Positions 5,534 through 11,951 of a stretch of 64,000 nucleotides of DNA are shown piece by piece. Origin of the DNA: Allorhodopirellula solitaria. Its GTDB lineage: Bacteria > Planctomycetota > Planctomycetia > Pirellulales > Pirellulaceae. Numbering within the stretch: the stretch's first letter is position 1; each line of letters begins with the position of its first letter. The notes under the pieces were generated by a model, which did no database searches, was not told the origin of the DNA, and saw only the letters and a program-made list of their open reading frames with translations. The position numbers were made by a program, and so were the translations under genes. Location: NCBI RefSeq assembly GCF_007859855.1, contig NZ_SJPK01000018.1:1-64000 (forward strand), read 5' to 3'.

Positions 5534-5590
5534 GCTAGAAAAGGGCCACCCATAAAGTAGGAGCTAGAAAAGGGCCACCCATAAAGTAGG
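5534..5590. repeat. Tandem 28-bp repeat at the left end of the IS1182-type element
   Basis: A 28-base unit starting GCTAGAAAAGGGCCACCC occurs at 5534-5561 and again at 5563-5590, one base apart. The RHS reading frame stops exactly where the first copy starts. The unit is probably the element's outer end, duplicated. No inverted copy is visible to the right of the transposase gene, so the other end appears lost. Confidence 0.75.
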
Positions 5591-5686: not shown

Positions 5687-7366
5687 TTGGCCCGGAGTCC
5701 TATCGTGCGATATCAACAAGACCCTTCGCAAACGGAGCTGTTCGACTTTTACGAGCAGATTCTTTCCCCCGTCGGTTACCGTAGACTGCTCAACGGTTGG
5801 CAGCATCTCTTTCGCACAGCCATCCTCCGACTGATGCCTGTGGGACGCTTAGCCGAGCGTTTTGATCCCGCCATCGGGCGACCTACCAAGGAACTCTACT
5901 CAGTCGCCGCCTTGCTCTTTGTGATGGAATTCCGTGATTGGACCCACCAAGAAGCGGCCGACGCTTACATGTTCAACGTGGACGTTCAGTACGCATTGAA
6001 CCTTCGACCGGAGAACCAGAGCCTGTGTCGTCGCACCATCGAGCGTTACATTGAGCTCTTTCGAGAAGATGAATTGGCAGCGGACATCATGAACGATGTT
6101 ACCGCCGAATTGGTCAAACTGCTTGAACTGGACGTCTCCAAGCAGCGACTCGATTCGACACACATCGAATCAAACATGGCCAAATTCGGACGCATCAGAT
6201 TGATGGTCACCGCGATCAAACGTTTCTTGACTCAAATCAAACGGCACGATGAAGGAAGCTATAACGCCCTGCCGCGAAGCGTTCGAGATCGCTACGAAGC
6301 CGGTGCAAACGCCTTGTTCGGCTGGAAGAAACTTGAGGATGACGAGATCGACACCCTTCGTCAGAGCGTGGCCGAGGACTTGCTGTACTTGGTCGAGCGT
6401 TACCGACGCAACCGGAAGCATCATCAACGATCGACCTACCTAGCGATGGCCAAAATCCTGGAGCAGCAGTGCGAGATCACTGACGGAACAGTCGAGCTGA
6501 AGAAGAATACCGGCGGAGACGTGATCTGCAACTCCTCTGATGTCGATGCGACCTTTGACGGACACAAGGGCAGCGGCTACCAGGTTCAGTTGAGTGAGAC
6601 CTACAGCAGCGAAAATTGCGTTCAGTTGATCGTCGCCGCACATGTCGAAACGGCCTGCACCCACGACAGCCACGCCATCGGCTGGCTCCTGGATCACTAT
6701 CAATCGCAAGGCGGATCGATGCCACAGACGCTGCTTGCCGATACGGCCTATGGCAGTGACGACAACTTCCAGAAGTGTGCCAACGGAGCAAGTTGGACCA
6801 GTCCGCTGAAACCGGATCATGAAGCGACCTCTGCTCCCGTGGTCAAGCTTGTCAGTCCCACCAGCGGAAAGGTCAGCGAAGCGGAAACCCTATCACCGAA
6901 TGCTTCGAAACCACTGACGACTCTGGACTTCCCCTATGATGCGTCGGTGAATCGCTTCACGCATTGCCCCGCTGGCAAGGAACTCCATCGAGCCCACTAC
7001 CGTAAGATGCATGACCAACATCACTTGCTGATGCTCAGCGATGATTGCCGCAGTTGTCCGTTGCGGTCGCGTTGTCCGATGCAAGGCGACCCGATGCTTT
7101 ATGACATGCGGATTGATGGGAAAGACTTGCGTTTGGCCCAGCGGCGTCAGGCCGAGGAGACCGATACGTTTCGCCGGGAGTACCGCAAACGAGGCGGCAT
7201 TGAGGCGACCAACAGCATCCTGAAACGCGTGACGGGCCTGAGTCGCCTGCGGGTTCGCGGTCGGCCCGCAATGACAACGAGTACCCTGCTGAAAGTCGCC
7301 GGTTGGAATGTCCTTCAGGCTACCCGCGGGCACCGATCGCGGCAAAAATCGCTCTCCGCAGCTTAG
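5687..7366 (+). CDS. IS1182-type DDE transposase
   Basis: 559 residues, full length for IS1182-type transposases. The start is TTG at 5687. The N-terminal DUF772-like part (about residues 40-140) holds GRPTKELYSVAALLFVMEFR. The DDE-type core follows: LDSTHIES with Asp156, LLADTAYG with a second Asp, and GGIEATNSILKR with the Glu near residue 505. A Cys cluster (CRSCPLRSRC) sits before the last motif, as is usual in this family. The frame is intact, so the enzyme may still be made and act on other copies. Confidence 0.9.
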   Translation: MARSPIVRYQQDPSQTELFDFYEQILSPVGYRRLLNGWQHLFRTAILRLMPVGRLAERFDPAIGRPTKELYSVAALLFVMEFRDWTHQEAADAYMFNVDVQYALNLRPENQSLCRRTIERYIELFREDELAADIMNDVTAELVKLLELDVSKQRLDSTHIESNMAKFGRIRLMVTAIKRFLTQIKRHDEGSYNALPRSVRDRYEAGANALFGWKKLEDDEIDTLRQSVAEDLLYLVERYRRNRKHHQRSTYLAMAKILEQQCEITDGTVELKKNTGGDVICNSSDVDATFDGHKGSGYQVQLSETYSSENCVQLIVAAHVETACTHDSHAIGWLLDHYQSQGGSMPQTLLADTAYGSDDNFQKCANGASWTSPLKPDHEATSAPVVKLVSPTSGKVSEAETLSPNASKPLTTLDFPYDASVNRFTHCPAGKELHRAHYRKMHDQHHLLMLSDDCRSCPLRSRCPMQGDPMLYDMRIDGKDLRLAQRRQAEETDTFRREYRKRGGIEATNSILKRVTGLSRLRVRGRPAMTTSTLLKVAGWNVLQATRGHRSRQKSLSAA

Positions 7367-7367
7367 G

Positions 7368-7460
7368 TGTTACCGACCTCGCTCTGATCGCATTTGACGG
7401 TCTTTTTCTGCCGAATTGTTGTCGTAGTCACGGACTGTTCTTACACCGGTAATTCGGTAG
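7368..7460. repeat. Left end of the transposon: terminal repeat plus two internal sites
   Basis: The terminal 11-mer TGTTACCGACC at 7368-7378 is followed by CTGCCGAATTGTTG at 7408-7421 and, inverted, TAATTCGGTAG at 7450-7460. The shared core CCGAATT also occurs four times at the right end. Repeated, unevenly spaced sites of this kind are transposase-binding sites in Tn7-like elements; that role here is inferred. The remaining bases to 7657 hold no gene I can support. Confidence 0.65.
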
Positions 7461-7657
7461 GCAGCAGCCCGCCGCCTGCAGACCAGAGCCTCGCCCCCCG
7501 CGTCTCTCGCAACCCGCCCCCTTCAACTAAATCGTACCCCGCCTCTCCCCCGCCCCCAGACTTGCTTTTCAGGCAGTCGGTTCGCGTTCGTTCGAATCCG
7601 TGATTCGACCGACTATCCTGCTGGACTTTTCCTCTCCAAGTTCAGGAGCCAGCGCCC

Positions 7658-8221
7658 GTGCGAGCCAGAATCTTCCGCTCTCAAACAGAGCGTGACGAGT
7701 TCCTGCTGAACCTCAAACTCACCCAGTGCCCCCACTGCAAGAAAGTCGGCACACTTAATCGTCATGGGGCCTTGCGCGGATACGACGAGAACAACGTCCG
7801 CCACAAATCCATTCGGGCACGAAGGGTCTTCTGTAGCAACCGAAATCAAGCCGCCGGATGTGGACGCACCTTCAGCGCGTGGATCGCTGACAAGGTCAAA
7901 CGGCTCTTTCTTAGTGCCGAGCAACTCTGGACATTTCTCAACGAAGCTGCCGCGAACGGCAACAAACGCAAAGCATTCAAAAAGCTCAATAGCAGCATGA
8001 GCGATTCGGCACCCTATCGAATTTGGAAACGATTGCAGAATGCACAGTCCTCCATTCGGACCACGCTGTCGACCATGTGCCCGCCGTCAAAAATCGATGG
8101 CTCACAGCCCAGCAACACGCCCGCTGAGAGCACACTCGCTCATCTGATCAAAGCCTTCACTGGCCACGGGCTCAATCCCATCGCCGCCTTCCAGCTCACG
8201 CTGCAGGCCTTCTTCATCTGA
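7658..8221 (+). CDS. Zinc-ribbon protein of the transposon (unknown family)
   Basis: 187 residues, GTG start, first gene of the element. The N-terminal third is a probable zinc ribbon: Cys24-x2-Cys27 (CPHC), then Cys59 and Cys68 in FCSNRNQAAGCGRTFSAW, the pattern of Zn-ribbons found at the front of several transposases. The rest is helical and basic. By position it could be a DNA-binding or target-selecting subunit comparable to TniQ, but I see no TniQ signature, so the role is inference. It is separated from the DDE transposase gene by about 260 bases with no gene. Confidence 0.6.
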   Translation: MRARIFRSQTERDEFLLNLKLTQCPHCKKVGTLNRHGALRGYDENNVRHKSIRARRVFCSNRNQAAGCGRTFSAWIADKVKRLFLSAEQLWTFLNEAAANGNKRKAFKKLNSSMSDSAPYRIWKRLQNAQSSIRTTLSTMCPPSKIDGSQPSNTPAESTLAHLIKAFTGHGLNPIAAFQLTLQAFFI

Positions 8222-8481
8222 CCCGCCGCGAGCCGCACCTAGGCAAGCCGATCTGGCCCGTGATCGCACGGCAACTTGTCGATCCTGGCCAGCATCATCT
8301 GCCTCGGGTGGTCGATTTGCCATCGTGCCTCACGCTTGGAAATTCTTTCTTTCTGCTCGACAACACAACCCGACGATAGATCCACCGCCGACCGCGCTTA
8401 GACTCGCCAGCGAATCGAATTCATGAATCGATTTCACTTCAGTCAACAGTCACTCGTCAATCAAACCCAGCGGAGCGGTCC

Positions 8482-9708
8482 ATGAAACGACCATCGGTCT
8501 ACGTCAAAATGAAAGTCCTCGGAGCGATTGAGGTCGCCGCCGGAAGAACACGTCACGAGAGAATCCACAGCGTCGCCGCCATGACGTTTCTCGATGAGCA
8601 GGGAGACCAACATCAGTTCACCTGGCGGACCATCCAAACCTGGTACTACCGTTACAAGAACCACGGTGTCACCGGCATGGACGCCTCGCCGCGAGCCGAC
8701 AAAGGACGGACACGCAAGGTCACACCCGAAGAGGTTCTCGAAGCGATCAACACCGCGCTGCCGCACTTTGTTTCTGCGAAAACGGGGCACAAGAGGACGC
8801 CCACCAAGTCAGCCGTCTATCGGTTCTGCATTGAAAAGGGACTCCTGCACGCCAGCCAGATCGCTCTGACCACGTTCTGCCGGTTCGTCCGCGAGTACGA
8901 ATTACTCAAGGACGATCCAGGCGAAAACCGACGCCGGCTCGCCTTCAGCATGCAGTACGCCAATCAACTTTGGCAGGCGGACACGATGTTCGGACCGCAC
9001 ATCGGTGGCCGGCAAGCCAAGCTGATCGCGCTGATCGATGACGCCAGTCGTGTGATCTGTCATGGTGAGTTCTTCTTCGAGGAGAACACCGATTCGATGA
9101 TCAAGGCTCTTCGCTCGGCCTTCTACAAACGAGGCTTGCCCGAACAGTTATACGTCGACAACGGTTCGATCTATTGCAGCCAAGAGATCACGCTGATTGC
9201 GGCGCGCGTGGGCTGCATCCTTCGTCACACGGCGGTGCGAGATGCGGCGGCGAAAGGGAAAGTCGAGCGATTCTTTCGCCGCGTGCGTGATCAATTTCTG
9301 ATCCGCAAACTCGACCTCACTTCGATCGAGGCACTCAACAAACAGTTCACGCACTGGGTCGAACATGACTACAACGCCACCGTGCACACCACCCTCGGGA
9401 TGAAGCCGATCGATCGCTTCGGTGTGGACCTTTCTCGGATCCGGTTTCTCTCACCGTCGGAGGATACTGACGAGCTGTTCTACGCCGAGGCGATGCGCAG
9501 TGTCAAAAAGGACAACACGTTCAGCTTCCAAGGCGAGCGTTACGAAACTCCGATCGACTTGCGTGGCAAGAAGGTCACGCTGCGGCATGAGCGACATCAC
9601 AAAGGCGCAGTCGTCGTCTACGAAAACGATCGACGCATCGGCAAGGCGAGACTGCTCGATGCCGTCGCCAACGGCATGAAACGCAGAACATCAGCCGAAG
9701 AGCGTTAG
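8482..9708 (+). CDS. DDE (rve-type) transposase of the transposon
   Basis: 408 residues. The ATG at 8482 has a purine-rich GGAGCGG just upstream. An N-terminal helix-turn-helix region (about 1-140) precedes a retroviral-integrase-like core: Asp167 (LWQADTMFG), Asp226 (LYVDNGSIY) and Glu262 (AAAKGKVERFF), with the D-35-E spacing typical of this superfamily. A C-terminal beta-rich segment (about 330-400) resembles the Mu-type C-terminal domain seen in TniA and IS481-like enzymes. The next gene is an AAA ATPase, as in Tn5053 (tniA-tniB), Tn7 (tnsB-tnsC) and IS21 (istA-istB). Confidence 0.9.
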   Translation: MKRPSVYVKMKVLGAIEVAAGRTRHERIHSVAAMTFLDEQGDQHQFTWRTIQTWYYRYKNHGVTGMDASPRADKGRTRKVTPEEVLEAINTALPHFVSAKTGHKRTPTKSAVYRFCIEKGLLHASQIALTTFCRFVREYELLKDDPGENRRRLAFSMQYANQLWQADTMFGPHIGGRQAKLIALIDDASRVICHGEFFFEENTDSMIKALRSAFYKRGLPEQLYVDNGSIYCSQEITLIAARVGCILRHTAVRDAAAKGKVERFFRRVRDQFLIRKLDLTSIEALNKQFTHWVEHDYNATVHTTLGMKPIDRFGVDLSRIRFLSPSEDTDELFYAEAMRSVKKDNTFSFQGERYETPIDLRGKKVTLRHERHHKGAVVVYENDRRIGKARLLDAVANGMKRRTSAEER

Positions 9709-9761
9709 CTCACGGTTCTCTCATCTTCTTCATCCTTCCTCCTTCACCACTCAAACTTCCC

Positions 9762-10565
9762 ATGATCCGTTCTTACTTCGGCTTGTCCGAAAACCCCTTC
9801 GCGCTACGCGACATCCAACTTCTACAACATCAGCAGGAAATCTATGACACGCTGCGAGTCCACTGCCAACAAGGCGGTCTGTGTCTGGTCGTCGGCAGAC
9901 CCGGCACCGGCAAATCCGTCATCAAAGAATCACTCAAAAAACTTCCCGAGAAAGAGTACTTGGTCGCCACGGTCGCACGGACGCTGCACACTTACACCAA
10001 CACGGTAAAAATCCTCTGCGAAGCGTTTCGGATTGAGTTTGAAAGCTCGGCGTTCAAGTGCGAACGCAAGCTGATCCAGCAAGCCTTCAGCCTGAATCGC
10101 AGTGGCAAGATGCTTGTCACGGTGATCGACGATGCCCATCTGATGGCGATGGAGAACCTTCGTCGATTGCGACTGCTGCTGGAAGATTTCCCGAAGAATC
10201 ACAACCTGATTCTGGTGGGCCAGCCGGAGTTGCTCGCCGATCTGGACTTGGCGGTCAACTTAGATCTGAAAAGCCGGGTGACATATTCGGTCATCACCAA
10301 GCGGTTGCACGACGATGTGATGCGCGCGTTCATCGAGCGTGAACTCGATTCGATCGGCCTCGCACATAGCACATTCACCTCCGGGGCAACCGAGTTGATT
10401 ATCCGCAGTGCCGATGGGGTCTTGCGCAAGTGCCGCAACCTGTGCCTAGCGTCGATGCTCGAAGCGGTCCGCGCGACAGCTGGCACGACGATCGACATCG
10501 ACTTGGTCAATCGCGTGTTACTTCAGCCGCACTGGCAAAACGAAGTCGACCTGACGGATTTTTAA
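9762..10565 (+). CDS. ExeA/TniB-like AAA+ ATPase of the transposon
   Basis: 267 residues. The N-terminus MIRSYFGLSENPFALRD is the hallmark opening of the ExeA/GspA ATPase group. Walker A is GRPGTGKS (45-52), Walker B is VTVIDDAHLM (Asp123-Asp124), and a sensor-like LILVGQPEL follows near residue 148. In transposons such ATPases (TniB, TnsC, IstB) bind target DNA and activate the DDE transposase. It starts 53 bases after the transposase stop and shares its strand, so it is probably co-expressed. A secretion role is unlikely in this setting. Confidence 0.85.
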   Translation: MIRSYFGLSENPFALRDIQLLQHQQEIYDTLRVHCQQGGLCLVVGRPGTGKSVIKESLKKLPEKEYLVATVARTLHTYTNTVKILCEAFRIEFESSAFKCERKLIQQAFSLNRSGKMLVTVIDDAHLMAMENLRRLRLLLEDFPKNHNLILVGQPELLADLDLAVNLDLKSRVTYSVITKRLHDDVMRAFIERELDSIGLAHSTFTSGATELIIRSADGVLRKCRNLCLASMLEAVRATAGTTIDIDLVNRVLLQPHWQNEVDLTDF

Positions 10566-10619
10566 GCCTCAAAAGATGCTCTTGTTACAAACCCCTACTT
10601 CTAACTCCAAACTCCTGTT

Positions 10620-10940
10620 ATGAAAATCACCAAGGAAATACTCCGCGCGATTCGCAACGATCTACCGATGAAACTGACGATCGTTCGGCTCGGCCAGCAC
10701 GGTCCGATTGCGAAACAAAGCGATGGCTACTTCCGCTTTGCATGCCCATCGTGCAAAGAACTTCGAGCGACGGTGAACCCGAAGAACAATCTCGCCCATT
10801 GTTTTAGCTGCGGCGAGAATTTTAATAACATCGACCTGATGATGGTGCAGGGTCACGACTTCTTGCCGGCGGTCGACATCCTGAGCAACTGGCTAGTGCA
10901 ATACCAACGGGACCTCAGCCAGAGGAAGTCCTCAGCCTAA
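10620..10940 (+). CDS. CHC2-type (DnaG-like) zinc-finger protein of the transposon
   Basis: 106 residues. It carries Cys42-x2-Cys45 (ACPSC) and His60-Cys61-x2-Cys64 (AHCFSCGENFNNIDLM), closely resembling the zinc finger at the N-terminus of bacterial DnaG primase and phage primases. The primase catalytic (Toprim) domain is absent and the protein ends soon after the finger. It starts 54 bases after the ATPase gene and is followed by a terminator inside the element, so it belongs to the transposon. In primases the finger recognises single-stranded template; a role in joint repair or target choice would be speculation. Confidence 0.8.
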   Translation: MKITKEILRAIRNDLPMKLTIVRLGQHGPIAKQSDGYFRFACPSCKELRATVNPKNNLAHCFSCGENFNNIDLMMVQGHDFLPAVDILSNWLVQYQRDLSQRKSSA

Positions 10941-10982
10941 TCGATCAAGCCGATCCGATCTCTACAGACAACCTCGATCAGT

Positions 10983-11015
10983 GCGACCGCTTTGCCGAAG
11001 CGATCGCGCTTTTTT
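10983..11015 (+). terminator. Intrinsic terminator after the transposon genes
   Basis: A 10-bp stem with one mismatch (GCGACCGCTT against AAGCGATCGC) and a 5-base loop is followed after two bases by six T. It lies 43 bases after the CHC2 gene, on the same strand, and would close the four-gene unit inside the element. Confidence 0.65.
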
Positions 11016-11113
11016 CATGCGCTGAGCGCACACGAATCCGAGCACAACAGGGTCGAGCCACGACTCGGTCGCTCCCATCGCAAAACCCACAAACGGGCTC
11101 TCCAAAATACTCA

Positions 11114-11199
11114 GCAATTCGGCAAAACGACCAATTCGGGCCTCAAATCCATACAGTCATAATTTGGCAGAAAGTGCGACCGCAATTCGGTCGGTAACA
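11114..11199. repeat. Right end of the transposon: four sites plus terminal repeat
   Basis: Copies of (C)AATTCGG lie at 11115-11122, 11132-11139, 11160-11167 (AATTTGG variant) and 11184-11190, the last running into the terminal GGTCGGTAACA at 11189-11199. The spacing of 17, 28 and 24 bases between copies and the larger number than on the left (four against two) recall the asymmetric ends of Tn7. Confidence 0.65.
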
Positions 11200-11951
11200 G
11201 GGTCTCTGGAGCTAAACCTACCCAGTTGCGCGTCGTACCAGCGGTTCCTGAAGTAGTACAGCCCGGCATCCGGCGTCCACTCGCGGCTAGTATAAGTGTA
11301 GTGAACCCCATAGGTGCTAACAGCCCGTGGCGTGAAGTTGGCCTCGAAGATGCTCAGGTTGCCGTAGGGGCCGTATTCGTAGCGTTCTTGCACACTACCC
11401 GAATCGCTCACTACCGCCGTCGTGTTCCAGTTCGCATCGGCCAGGTAGTACAGTCGCTCACTCAAGAGTCCTCCCGACGGCGAGATGTCCCGGTCTCGGA
11501 GTACGAGATCGTCGATGTACCGCATGCCCCACACGTAGTGGCGCCGTGGTGTATTGGAGGTGTCGACGCGTTCCTCCACACACTGCCAGGCGTCGGTGAA
11601 GTAGTAGTCACGCGTCCGAGCGAGCGTTCCCGACGTGTACTCCTTGGCAACCACGCGGAAGTTGCGGCCGTCATACTGATTTTCGAGGAGCACGTTCGAA
11701 GTTGCGTCATCGACCAGCTTCGTCATCCGGTTCCAGGCGTCGAACGTCGCTGTCATCGTCGCGTCGGTGCCCAGGTCCGGACGCGGGTTCGTTGTCGTGT
11801 TACCGTTCCTGTCGTAAACGGGGGTCGCCCAGATGTCGCTCGGCGTGTTGCTGATGTCCGTGATCTCGTTGACTTCGTTCGCAGTGCGCGTCTGATTGAA
11901 ATCCCAAGTCCCGTCACCGTTCTTATCCTGCCGGAACTCTTTCCAATTACC
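11200..11951 (-). pseudogene. RHS core fragment truncated at both ends
   Basis: The minus-strand frame encodes the last part of an RHS core (MTATFDAWNRMTKLVD ... YYFRNRWYDAQLGRFSSRDP), close to the same part of the long RHS gene. It stops being RHS right after the SRDP codons, where the transposon end begins; the frame then runs about 14 codons through transposon DNA (VTDRIAVALSAKL). On its 5' side RHS similarity ends abruptly at 11951. Thus the toxin tail and most of the core are missing. Its last 127 bases equal the window's first 127, so it is a near-twin of the gene cut by the left window edge. Confidence 0.8.

Follow-up and report, generated by a model that had tools for sequence, protein, structure and literature searches.

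The window, a 64,000-nucleotide stretch of contig NZ_SJPK01000018.1 of Allorhodopirellula solitaria, contains a compact transposon at positions 7368-11199; its inverted ends are imperfect and have the tip TGTTACCGACC (at 7368 and 11199). It carries four open reading frames (ORFs), all on the + strand and spanning 7658-10940, in the order zinc-ribbon protein, DDE transposase, ExeA/TniB-like ATPase and CHC2 protein, the last being a DnaG-type primase zinc-binding domain without a primase. The left end (7368..7490, + strand, inner limit approximate) has a tip similar to that of the other elements of this type, here called window-type; the right end (11031..11199, - strand, tip TGTTACCGACCGAATT, inner limit also approximate) has repeated subterminal motifs of the type CGAATTG/GCCAAATT. 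The same gene order and end tips were found again in other genomes, and the arrangement is thus not caused by chance: the ORFs, their Pfam matches and the inverted ends bear out an earlier note on this DNA, made from the letters alone, that had described a four-gene DDE/ATPase transposon, and this transposon carries CHC2. The CHC2 protein itself is not tied to this transposase; it is common to elements with DDE transposases and to elements with tyrosine recombinases.

The transposase (8482..9708, + strand, 408 amino acids (aa), triad D167, D226 and E262) matches the Pfam domains rve (E 9.8e-14) and Mu-transpos_C (E 2.1e-5) and also phrog_310; among NCBIfam models the IS481 transposase (NF033577) is best with 148.7 bits, which does not reach the cut-off of 224. 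The ATPase (9762..10565, + strand, 267 aa) is an AAA+ protein with Walker motifs starting at residue 45 (Walker A) and residue 121 (Walker B) and matches Pfam AAA_22 (E 1.4e-14) and the DNA transposition protein phrog_296 (E 1.8e-8). The first protein (7658..8221, + strand, 187 aa) has a zinc ribbon and a probable helix-turn-helix (HTH), and no family match above cut-off in Pfam or NCBIfam. The DDE core and the Mu-transpos_C domain are shared with IS481 and other rve transposases (IS21, Tn5053/Tn7-type); differences to IS481 are the score below cut-off, the ExeA-like ATPase, the zinc-ribbon gene and CHC2. Like Tn7 and Tn5053-type elements, the transposon combines a DDE transposase that has a Mu-transpos_C domain with an AAA ATPase, and none of its four proteins has a Pfam match at E<=1 to TniQ, TnsD or TnsA, consistent with the absence of a TniQ signature that the earlier note reported for the zinc-ribbon protein. 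The target duplication of Tn7/Tn5053-type elements is 5 bp, and this is not matched by the relatives described below (mostly 6 bp in Desulfoferrobacter, 6-7 bp in four of 12 copies in Kuenenia). With IS21 the element shares the two-protein logic of a transposase and an AAA+ ATPase; it differs from IS21 in that its ATPase has no match at E<=1 to the IstB model (PF01695).

The CHC2 protein (10620..10940, + strand, 106 aa, cysteines C42, C45, C61 and C64) is a complete, stand-alone DnaG-type primase zinc-binding domain under purifying selection. Its match to Pfam PF01807 (E 3.8e-5, 23.8 bits) is below the cut-off of 24.9, and its AlphaFold model has a mean pLDDT of 94.5. When this model was compared with known structures by VIA-align, the isolated zinc domain of Bacillus stearothermophilus DnaG (1d0q) came first (Z 9.4, rmsd 3.1, 90 aligned), followed by the primases of Aquifex (2au3, Z 8.7) and T4 (Z 5.1); Foldseek matched the model to the primase zinc domain with E 4.5e-4, and a profile of 50 CHC2 members searched against 177,635 distinct chain sequences also returned 1d0q first (E 1.7e-5). 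The likeness to the DnaG domain, in sequence as well as in fold, extends over nearly the whole length. Zinc ligands of DnaG are C-H-C-C; the CHC2 protein has four cysteines instead, which are among the 15 invariant columns of the 50-protein alignment. It further differs from DnaG in standing alone, with no polymerase or helicase-binding domain: there is no TOPRIM/RNA-polymerase domain in the 106-aa ORF, which ends after the zinc domain, as the earlier note had recognised. The ratio dN/dS is 0.08 between the window gene and two sister copies and 0.13 and 0.15 for two more distant pairs.

A scan of genome contigs returned 141 CHC2 relatives. The best 80 of these 141 were examined, with neighbouring genes called by profiles that were grown from single seeds: recognised recombinase or ATPase genes are present at 72 loci and fall into five architectures. 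Two of these are of the ExeA-DDE kind, window-type (15 of the 80 loci) and Kuenenia-type (27 loci, ten of them from one Desulfoferrobacter genome), in both cases with some calls made on the ATPase alone. The other three are a divergent probable DDE transposase with an AAA ATPase (12 loci), IS21-like IstAB (ten loci, IstB only in some) and tyrosine recombinases (eight loci, with three genes in seven, L132 ending after the first). The expectation that CHC2 would always stand beside the same DDE/ATPase pair was therefore wrong or incomplete. Eight loci have no recognised partner (L070, L072, L073, L077, L088, L092, L093 and L125), and in five of them the CHC2 match is partial. At L077 a tyrosine recombinase gene lies 3 kb away on the other strand and was not counted as a partner. 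Of three partnerless loci inspected (L072, L092 and L125), L072 is a relic beside RHS pieces and L092 a truncated element with a zinc-ribbon gene.

Domain matches of single representatives agree with these classes: IstB 5.6e-48 (L120, whose IstA matches the IS21 transposase model with 4e-30, under the cut-off of that model), phage integrase 1.8e-27 (L090) and AAA_22 1.3e-7 (ATPase of the divergent type, L111). The divergent transposase is probably a DDE enzyme, as judged from its sequence: six of seven members match the transposase family phrog_310 (best E 7e-7) and D160, D229 and E273 are invariant. We call it only probable because none of the seven members has a Pfam rve match at E<=1; there was also no useful match in the PDB. 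The IS21-like CHC2 elements have, besides IstB, repeated GATAAATTGATAC-like ends (L091, L095, L157). Elements with three adjacent tyrosine recombinases resemble RIT (recombinase in trio) elements, described as RitA, RitB and RitC in PMC3414803, and add CHC2 and, mostly, a zinc-ribbon gene; the word 'zinc' is absent from that paper, as is 'zinc finger' from PMC10214605. CHC2 lies within inverted ends that have a 6-bp direct repeat outside in the divergent-DDE element L113, in the IS21-like element L157 and in the tyrosine trios L110 and L112. L157 is on plasmid pHRM2a, whose record annotates the gene as 'CHC2 zinc finger domain-containing protein'; L110 and L112 have the identical repeat GGGACG, as a site-specific recombinase would leave.

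Between one representative per type, CHC2 proteins are 40-67% identical in all ten pairs, with 67% for divergent-DDE versus tyrosine. As the first profile comparisons of the partner proteins were not independent (iterated, with shared members), these were repeated with separate sets: window-type and Kuenenia-type elements are related in their transposases (E 7.4e-23) and ATPases (E 2.7e-18), and no significant match to the window type came out for the transposase (probability 1.9) and ATPase (1.2) of the divergent type or for IstA (2.1) and IstB (42). When a tree was constructed from 50 CHC2 proteins, the window type formed one clade (support 100/100); the five type labels need eight changes on this tree (the minimum is four), and a Kuenenia-type member (L126) pairs with a divergent-DDE member (L130) with support 100/99. 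As good support is limited to eight of the 47 inner branches, it is uncertain how often CHC2 was exchanged.

Close relatives show that the element moves as a unit. When 392 genomes of the phylum were searched for CHC2, seven matched, the own genome included. Kuenenia (G088, a single contig of 4,406,153 bp) has 12 near-identical copies (~99.8-99.9% identity), each 3,790 bp long and containing all four genes; target duplications of 6-7 bp flank four of the 12, and the other eight mismatch their own partner flank. Desulfoferrobacter suflitae has ten full CHC2 copies and one partial copy. Nine were compared (L104, with its ATPase gene in two pieces and no upstream genes called, was left out), and all nine are 4,321 bp long, with duplications of 6 bp in six, 7 bp in two and 5 bp in one. 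These multi-copy elements indicate that the unit, CHC2 included, moves as one. Taken as a whole, it is close to certain that CHC2 is part of a mobile unit in close relatives, has the fold of a primase finger, is under purifying selection and is shared across recombinase classes.

Several features of these relatives were recorded on the way. In L039 (4412-8201), the reference of the 12 Kuenenia copies, the HTH and DDE parts of the transposase are in different frames (+1) at element position ~1500-1540, which may reflect programmed frameshifting or a dependence of these copies on another source. A split HTH/DDE gene is not a general Kuenenia-type trait: the gene is in one frame in 11 other elements and split only in Kuenenia and the near-identical L096. 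L096 is on a contig of a Bacteroidales metagenome-assembled genome and its zinc-ribbon protein shows no difference from the Kuenenia protein in the aligned part, either by transfer or by binning contamination. Another Kuenenia-type element, L133, is on a 3,544-bp contig of a Methanophagales record, either because the host is archaeal or through contamination. L097 has ~930 bp without an evident intact gene (2052-2976) before the zinc-ribbon gene, a segment that lies within the 4,321 bp of all nine Desulfoferrobacter copies.

Of the 80 CHC2 loci, 48 have a called zinc-ribbon gene. Among 39 picked elements it was called in five of six window-type, ten of ten Kuenenia-type, ten of ten divergent, two of six IS21-like and seven of seven tyrosine elements; pairing of the two genes is thus usual, but not general. 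The window protein is remotely related to the DUF6431 proteins that Kuenenia-type elements carry: profiles without common members match with probability 81 (E 1.2e-5), and the Kuenenia-type member L101 matches DUF6431 above cut-off. Among the open-access papers listed, one, on Ruminococcus gnavus, names DUF6431. In divergent-DDE, IS21-like and tyrosine elements the zinc-ribbon genes belong to one family (separate sets, probability 100 and 95; divergent-DDE versus tyrosine 95, E 2.6e-8), and a zinc-ribbon gene of the Kuenenia type is present in L130, an element of the divergent type. The structure model of the window protein has a pLDDT of 76 and no PDB match at Z>=5, and TniQ is not among the matches listed.

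At its insertion site, the window copy has no target duplication of its own: the left flank ends with CTTAGG (7362..7367) and the right flank starts with GGGTCT. The own genome (6.8 Mb, 62 contigs) has one full copy of the element and several partial ones. When five left and 11 right flanks in the stretches examined were compared, only two matches of at least 4 bp were found: the right flank at C19:40077 starts with CTTAGG, identical to the left flank of the window copy, and the left flank at C3:127 equals the right flank at C19:24641 over 7 bp. CTTAGG and C19:40078-40083 are thus probably the two halves of one 6-bp target duplication, and duplications in the window lineage would be 6 and 7 bp, each split over two contigs. 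As its own flanks mismatch and the left one pairs with C19:40077, the window copy joins flanks of two insertions, presumably by recombination between copies or by mis-joining in the draft assembly. The same swap is present in the closed Kuenenia genome: the left flank of L039 equals the right flank of L041 (and also of L040), and the left flank of L041 equals the right flank of L039, over 6 bp each. Given this reciprocal swap, recombination or mis-joining is a sufficient reason for missing duplications, which are absent from all six single-contig window-type elements tested (L057, L058, L063, L066, L069 and L070), from the Kuenenia-type elements L079, L081 and L101 and from the divergent-DDE elements L116 and L130. 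One-ended transposition or cassettes had been considered as origin of the end-only and 127-bp identical fragments in the own genome; as C19 has N gaps and apparent chimeric joins, with the pieces beside the gaps resembling assembly breaks, and as several pieces are ~127 bp long, the fragments are probably for the most part assembly artefacts. A derivative is found at L070 (1113-1853), where 741 bp hold both ends and a CHC2 segment only, like a deletion form that might be mobilised in trans.

The left neighbour of the element is an IS1182-like transposase gene (5687-7366); on the left side of this gene a 24-base motif (GAAAAGGGCCACCC...) is present twice as a direct repeat (5538-5590), perhaps a duplicated IS end. 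The right flank (11200..11756, - strand, in an ORF at 11157-11756) encodes the C-terminal end of an RHS/YD-repeat core, broken at an SRDP motif, and the same RHS stretch is present without the element at 2386-2606 of the window and elsewhere. Site-specific insertion at the end of the RHS core was rejected: the right junction is at the SRDP motif, but the left junction comes from another insertion. An RHS gene lies ~0.7-2.3 kb away from L057, L058, L070 and L071, and none was seen at most of the other loci of the window type. RHS/YD-repeat genes near window position 11200 and near L057, L058, L070, L071, L072, L074 and L179, a set of window-type elements and one CHC2-less relative, are always on the minus strand relative to the element (at L072 the strand was judged by eye only).

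What the four proteins do can be proposed from these data, and we infer the role of each single protein as well as every mechanistic step. Transposases of this group cut and join ends, and their AAA+ partners help to choose targets. The DDE transposase, of the rve group, would move the element, the dedicated AAA+ ATPase would be a regulator or target selector, and the zinc-ribbon protein would bind DNA, at the ends, the target or the promoter. Single-stranded template is bound by the zinc domain of DnaG, which can also act in trans, on the polymerase domain of a second DnaG molecule. CHC2 would be such a domain detached from its primase, an exchangeable accessory linking transposition with DNA synthesis by the host; its most likely action would be to bind single-stranded DNA, or to engage the host primase in trans, during copying or repair of the element. 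The earlier note had suggested contact with single-stranded DNA or replication forks, which is plausible from the modelled fold. As CHC2 is kept together with unlike catalytic enzymes, it should serve a common step outside catalysis, of which host replication is an example. Movement by copying is widespread among DDE elements. Together with the copy-out movement via double-stranded circular intermediates that is proposed in PMC10214605 for the tyrosine-recombinase elements named SEs, this favours a role in replication or priming. That CHC2 couples transposition to host replication or priming is nevertheless a tentative reading of sequence and model, to which we give slightly less than an even chance. 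Doubtful is the more specific version, in which the stand-alone primase zinc domain, often with the zinc-ribbon protein, would be a portable module that recruits or mimics the host primase so that the DNA of the element is replicated during movement, across transposon classes.

Several observations weigh against such coupling, among them that there are relatives without CHC2. The Kuenenia transposase (E<=1e-12, with at most five candidates per genome scored) matched 16 of the 392 phylum genomes: the own genome, Kuenenia, G320 (with CHC2), G153 (a truncated relic) and 12 others, with transposases 24-35% identical to that of Kuenenia, 11 of which match the window transposase with 23-32% identity. 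None of the 12 distant loci has CHC2 (profile E<=1e-2; tblastn 1e-3); more than 700 bases are available beyond the ATPase at seven of the 12; the remaining loci either lie on too short a contig, have an interrupted ATPase or gave no ATPase. By comparison, the window-type elements with CHC2 are 58-91% identical, in pieces, to the window transposase (L057, L063, L066). DDE/ATPase pairs lacking CHC2, which the earlier note had looked to as evidence against its reading, thus exist among distant relatives, and close relatives carry CHC2. The basic reaction accordingly does not need CHC2, and the DDE/ATPase core is either older than CHC2 or has lost it: CHC2 is an exchangeable accessory, not a hallmark of the family. 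One CHC2-less relative, L180 (4684-9101), has tyrosine recombinase genes between two pieces of the ATPase gene, and no CHC2 gene was found there. Selection on CHC2 is also not exceptional: dN/dS of the other genes (transposase 0.12, ATPase 0.09, zinc-ribbon 0.16) is similar, so that CHC2 is kept as is the rest of the element. The window copy and L057 are 89% identical in the ATPase and 75% in CHC2, and in conservation CHC2 ranks behind another gene in two of the four element groups that were compared (the ATPase in divergent-DDE, IstB in IS21-like elements). Insertions gave no convincing sign of a strand preference relative to local GC skew: nine of 12 were negative in Kuenenia, not all of them independent, and six of ten positive in Desulfoferrobacter, where the skews were close to zero and two copies were judged from shared flank samples. 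Sampling the Kuenenia chromosome at 20 evenly spaced stretches of 20 kb gave no clean ori-ter axis. Finally, a zinc ribbon with the fold of CHC2 might instead have RNA or protein as its ligand, or act in transcriptional regulation.

The last point leads to a different explanation, in which CHC2 (along with the zinc-ribbon gene) controls transcription or copy number of the element and takes no direct part in DNA synthesis. CHC2 is a small zinc protein encoded in a co-directed gene row with the transposase, unlike transposons all need regulation, and two of the types also carry genes with weak matches to KorB/ParB or partitioning proteins, one with a ParB annotation. Still, we consider a regulator unlikely: what CHC2 matches, over almost its full length, is the zinc domain of primase and no HTH as is typical of repressors, and a self-regulator would face other promoters in every element type, whereas CHC2 has the highest conservation of all genes in the remaining two of the four groups.

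Tn7 TnsE steers insertion to replication forks, and by analogy CHC2 may do the same: the primase zinc domain acts at the lagging-strand template, and sharing across recombinases fits a portable target selector. No insertion-orientation bias was shown among 12 Kuenenia and ten Desulfoferrobacter copies, which weighs against fork targeting, though not decisively, as the GC-skew signals were weak. The GGGACG repeat common to the tyrosine trios L110 and L112 also weighs against it, since it points to targets chosen by sequence in these elements, and we find fork targeting quite improbable. A last explanation would make CHC2 cargo, a host-takeover or anti-defence gene that hitch-hikes in many transposons; its movement between element types and the CHC2-less relatives would fit. 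However, the place of CHC2 is fixed in each element type, elements of ~3.4-5.1 kb leave little room, PADLOC matches are weak and partial only, and no CHC2 relative was confirmed in viral contigs (queried with a single sequence and an alignment) or in phage records, which makes cargo very unlikely.

Among the open-access matches listed (titles, abstracts and passages; ISfinder, TnCentral and subscription journals are outside this scope) there is no description of a CHC2-bearing transposon, in line with the suggestion of the earlier note that the system is little described. To our knowledge, how copying transposons get their intermediates replicated is largely open, and a small primase-finger protein that is common to DDE and tyrosine-recombinase elements offers a concrete handle on the connection of transposition and replication. 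If the proposed coupling is true, CHC2 would be a replication-coupling factor common to transposon classes, and its sharing by unlike enzymes hints at a common link between DNA jumping and DNA copying.

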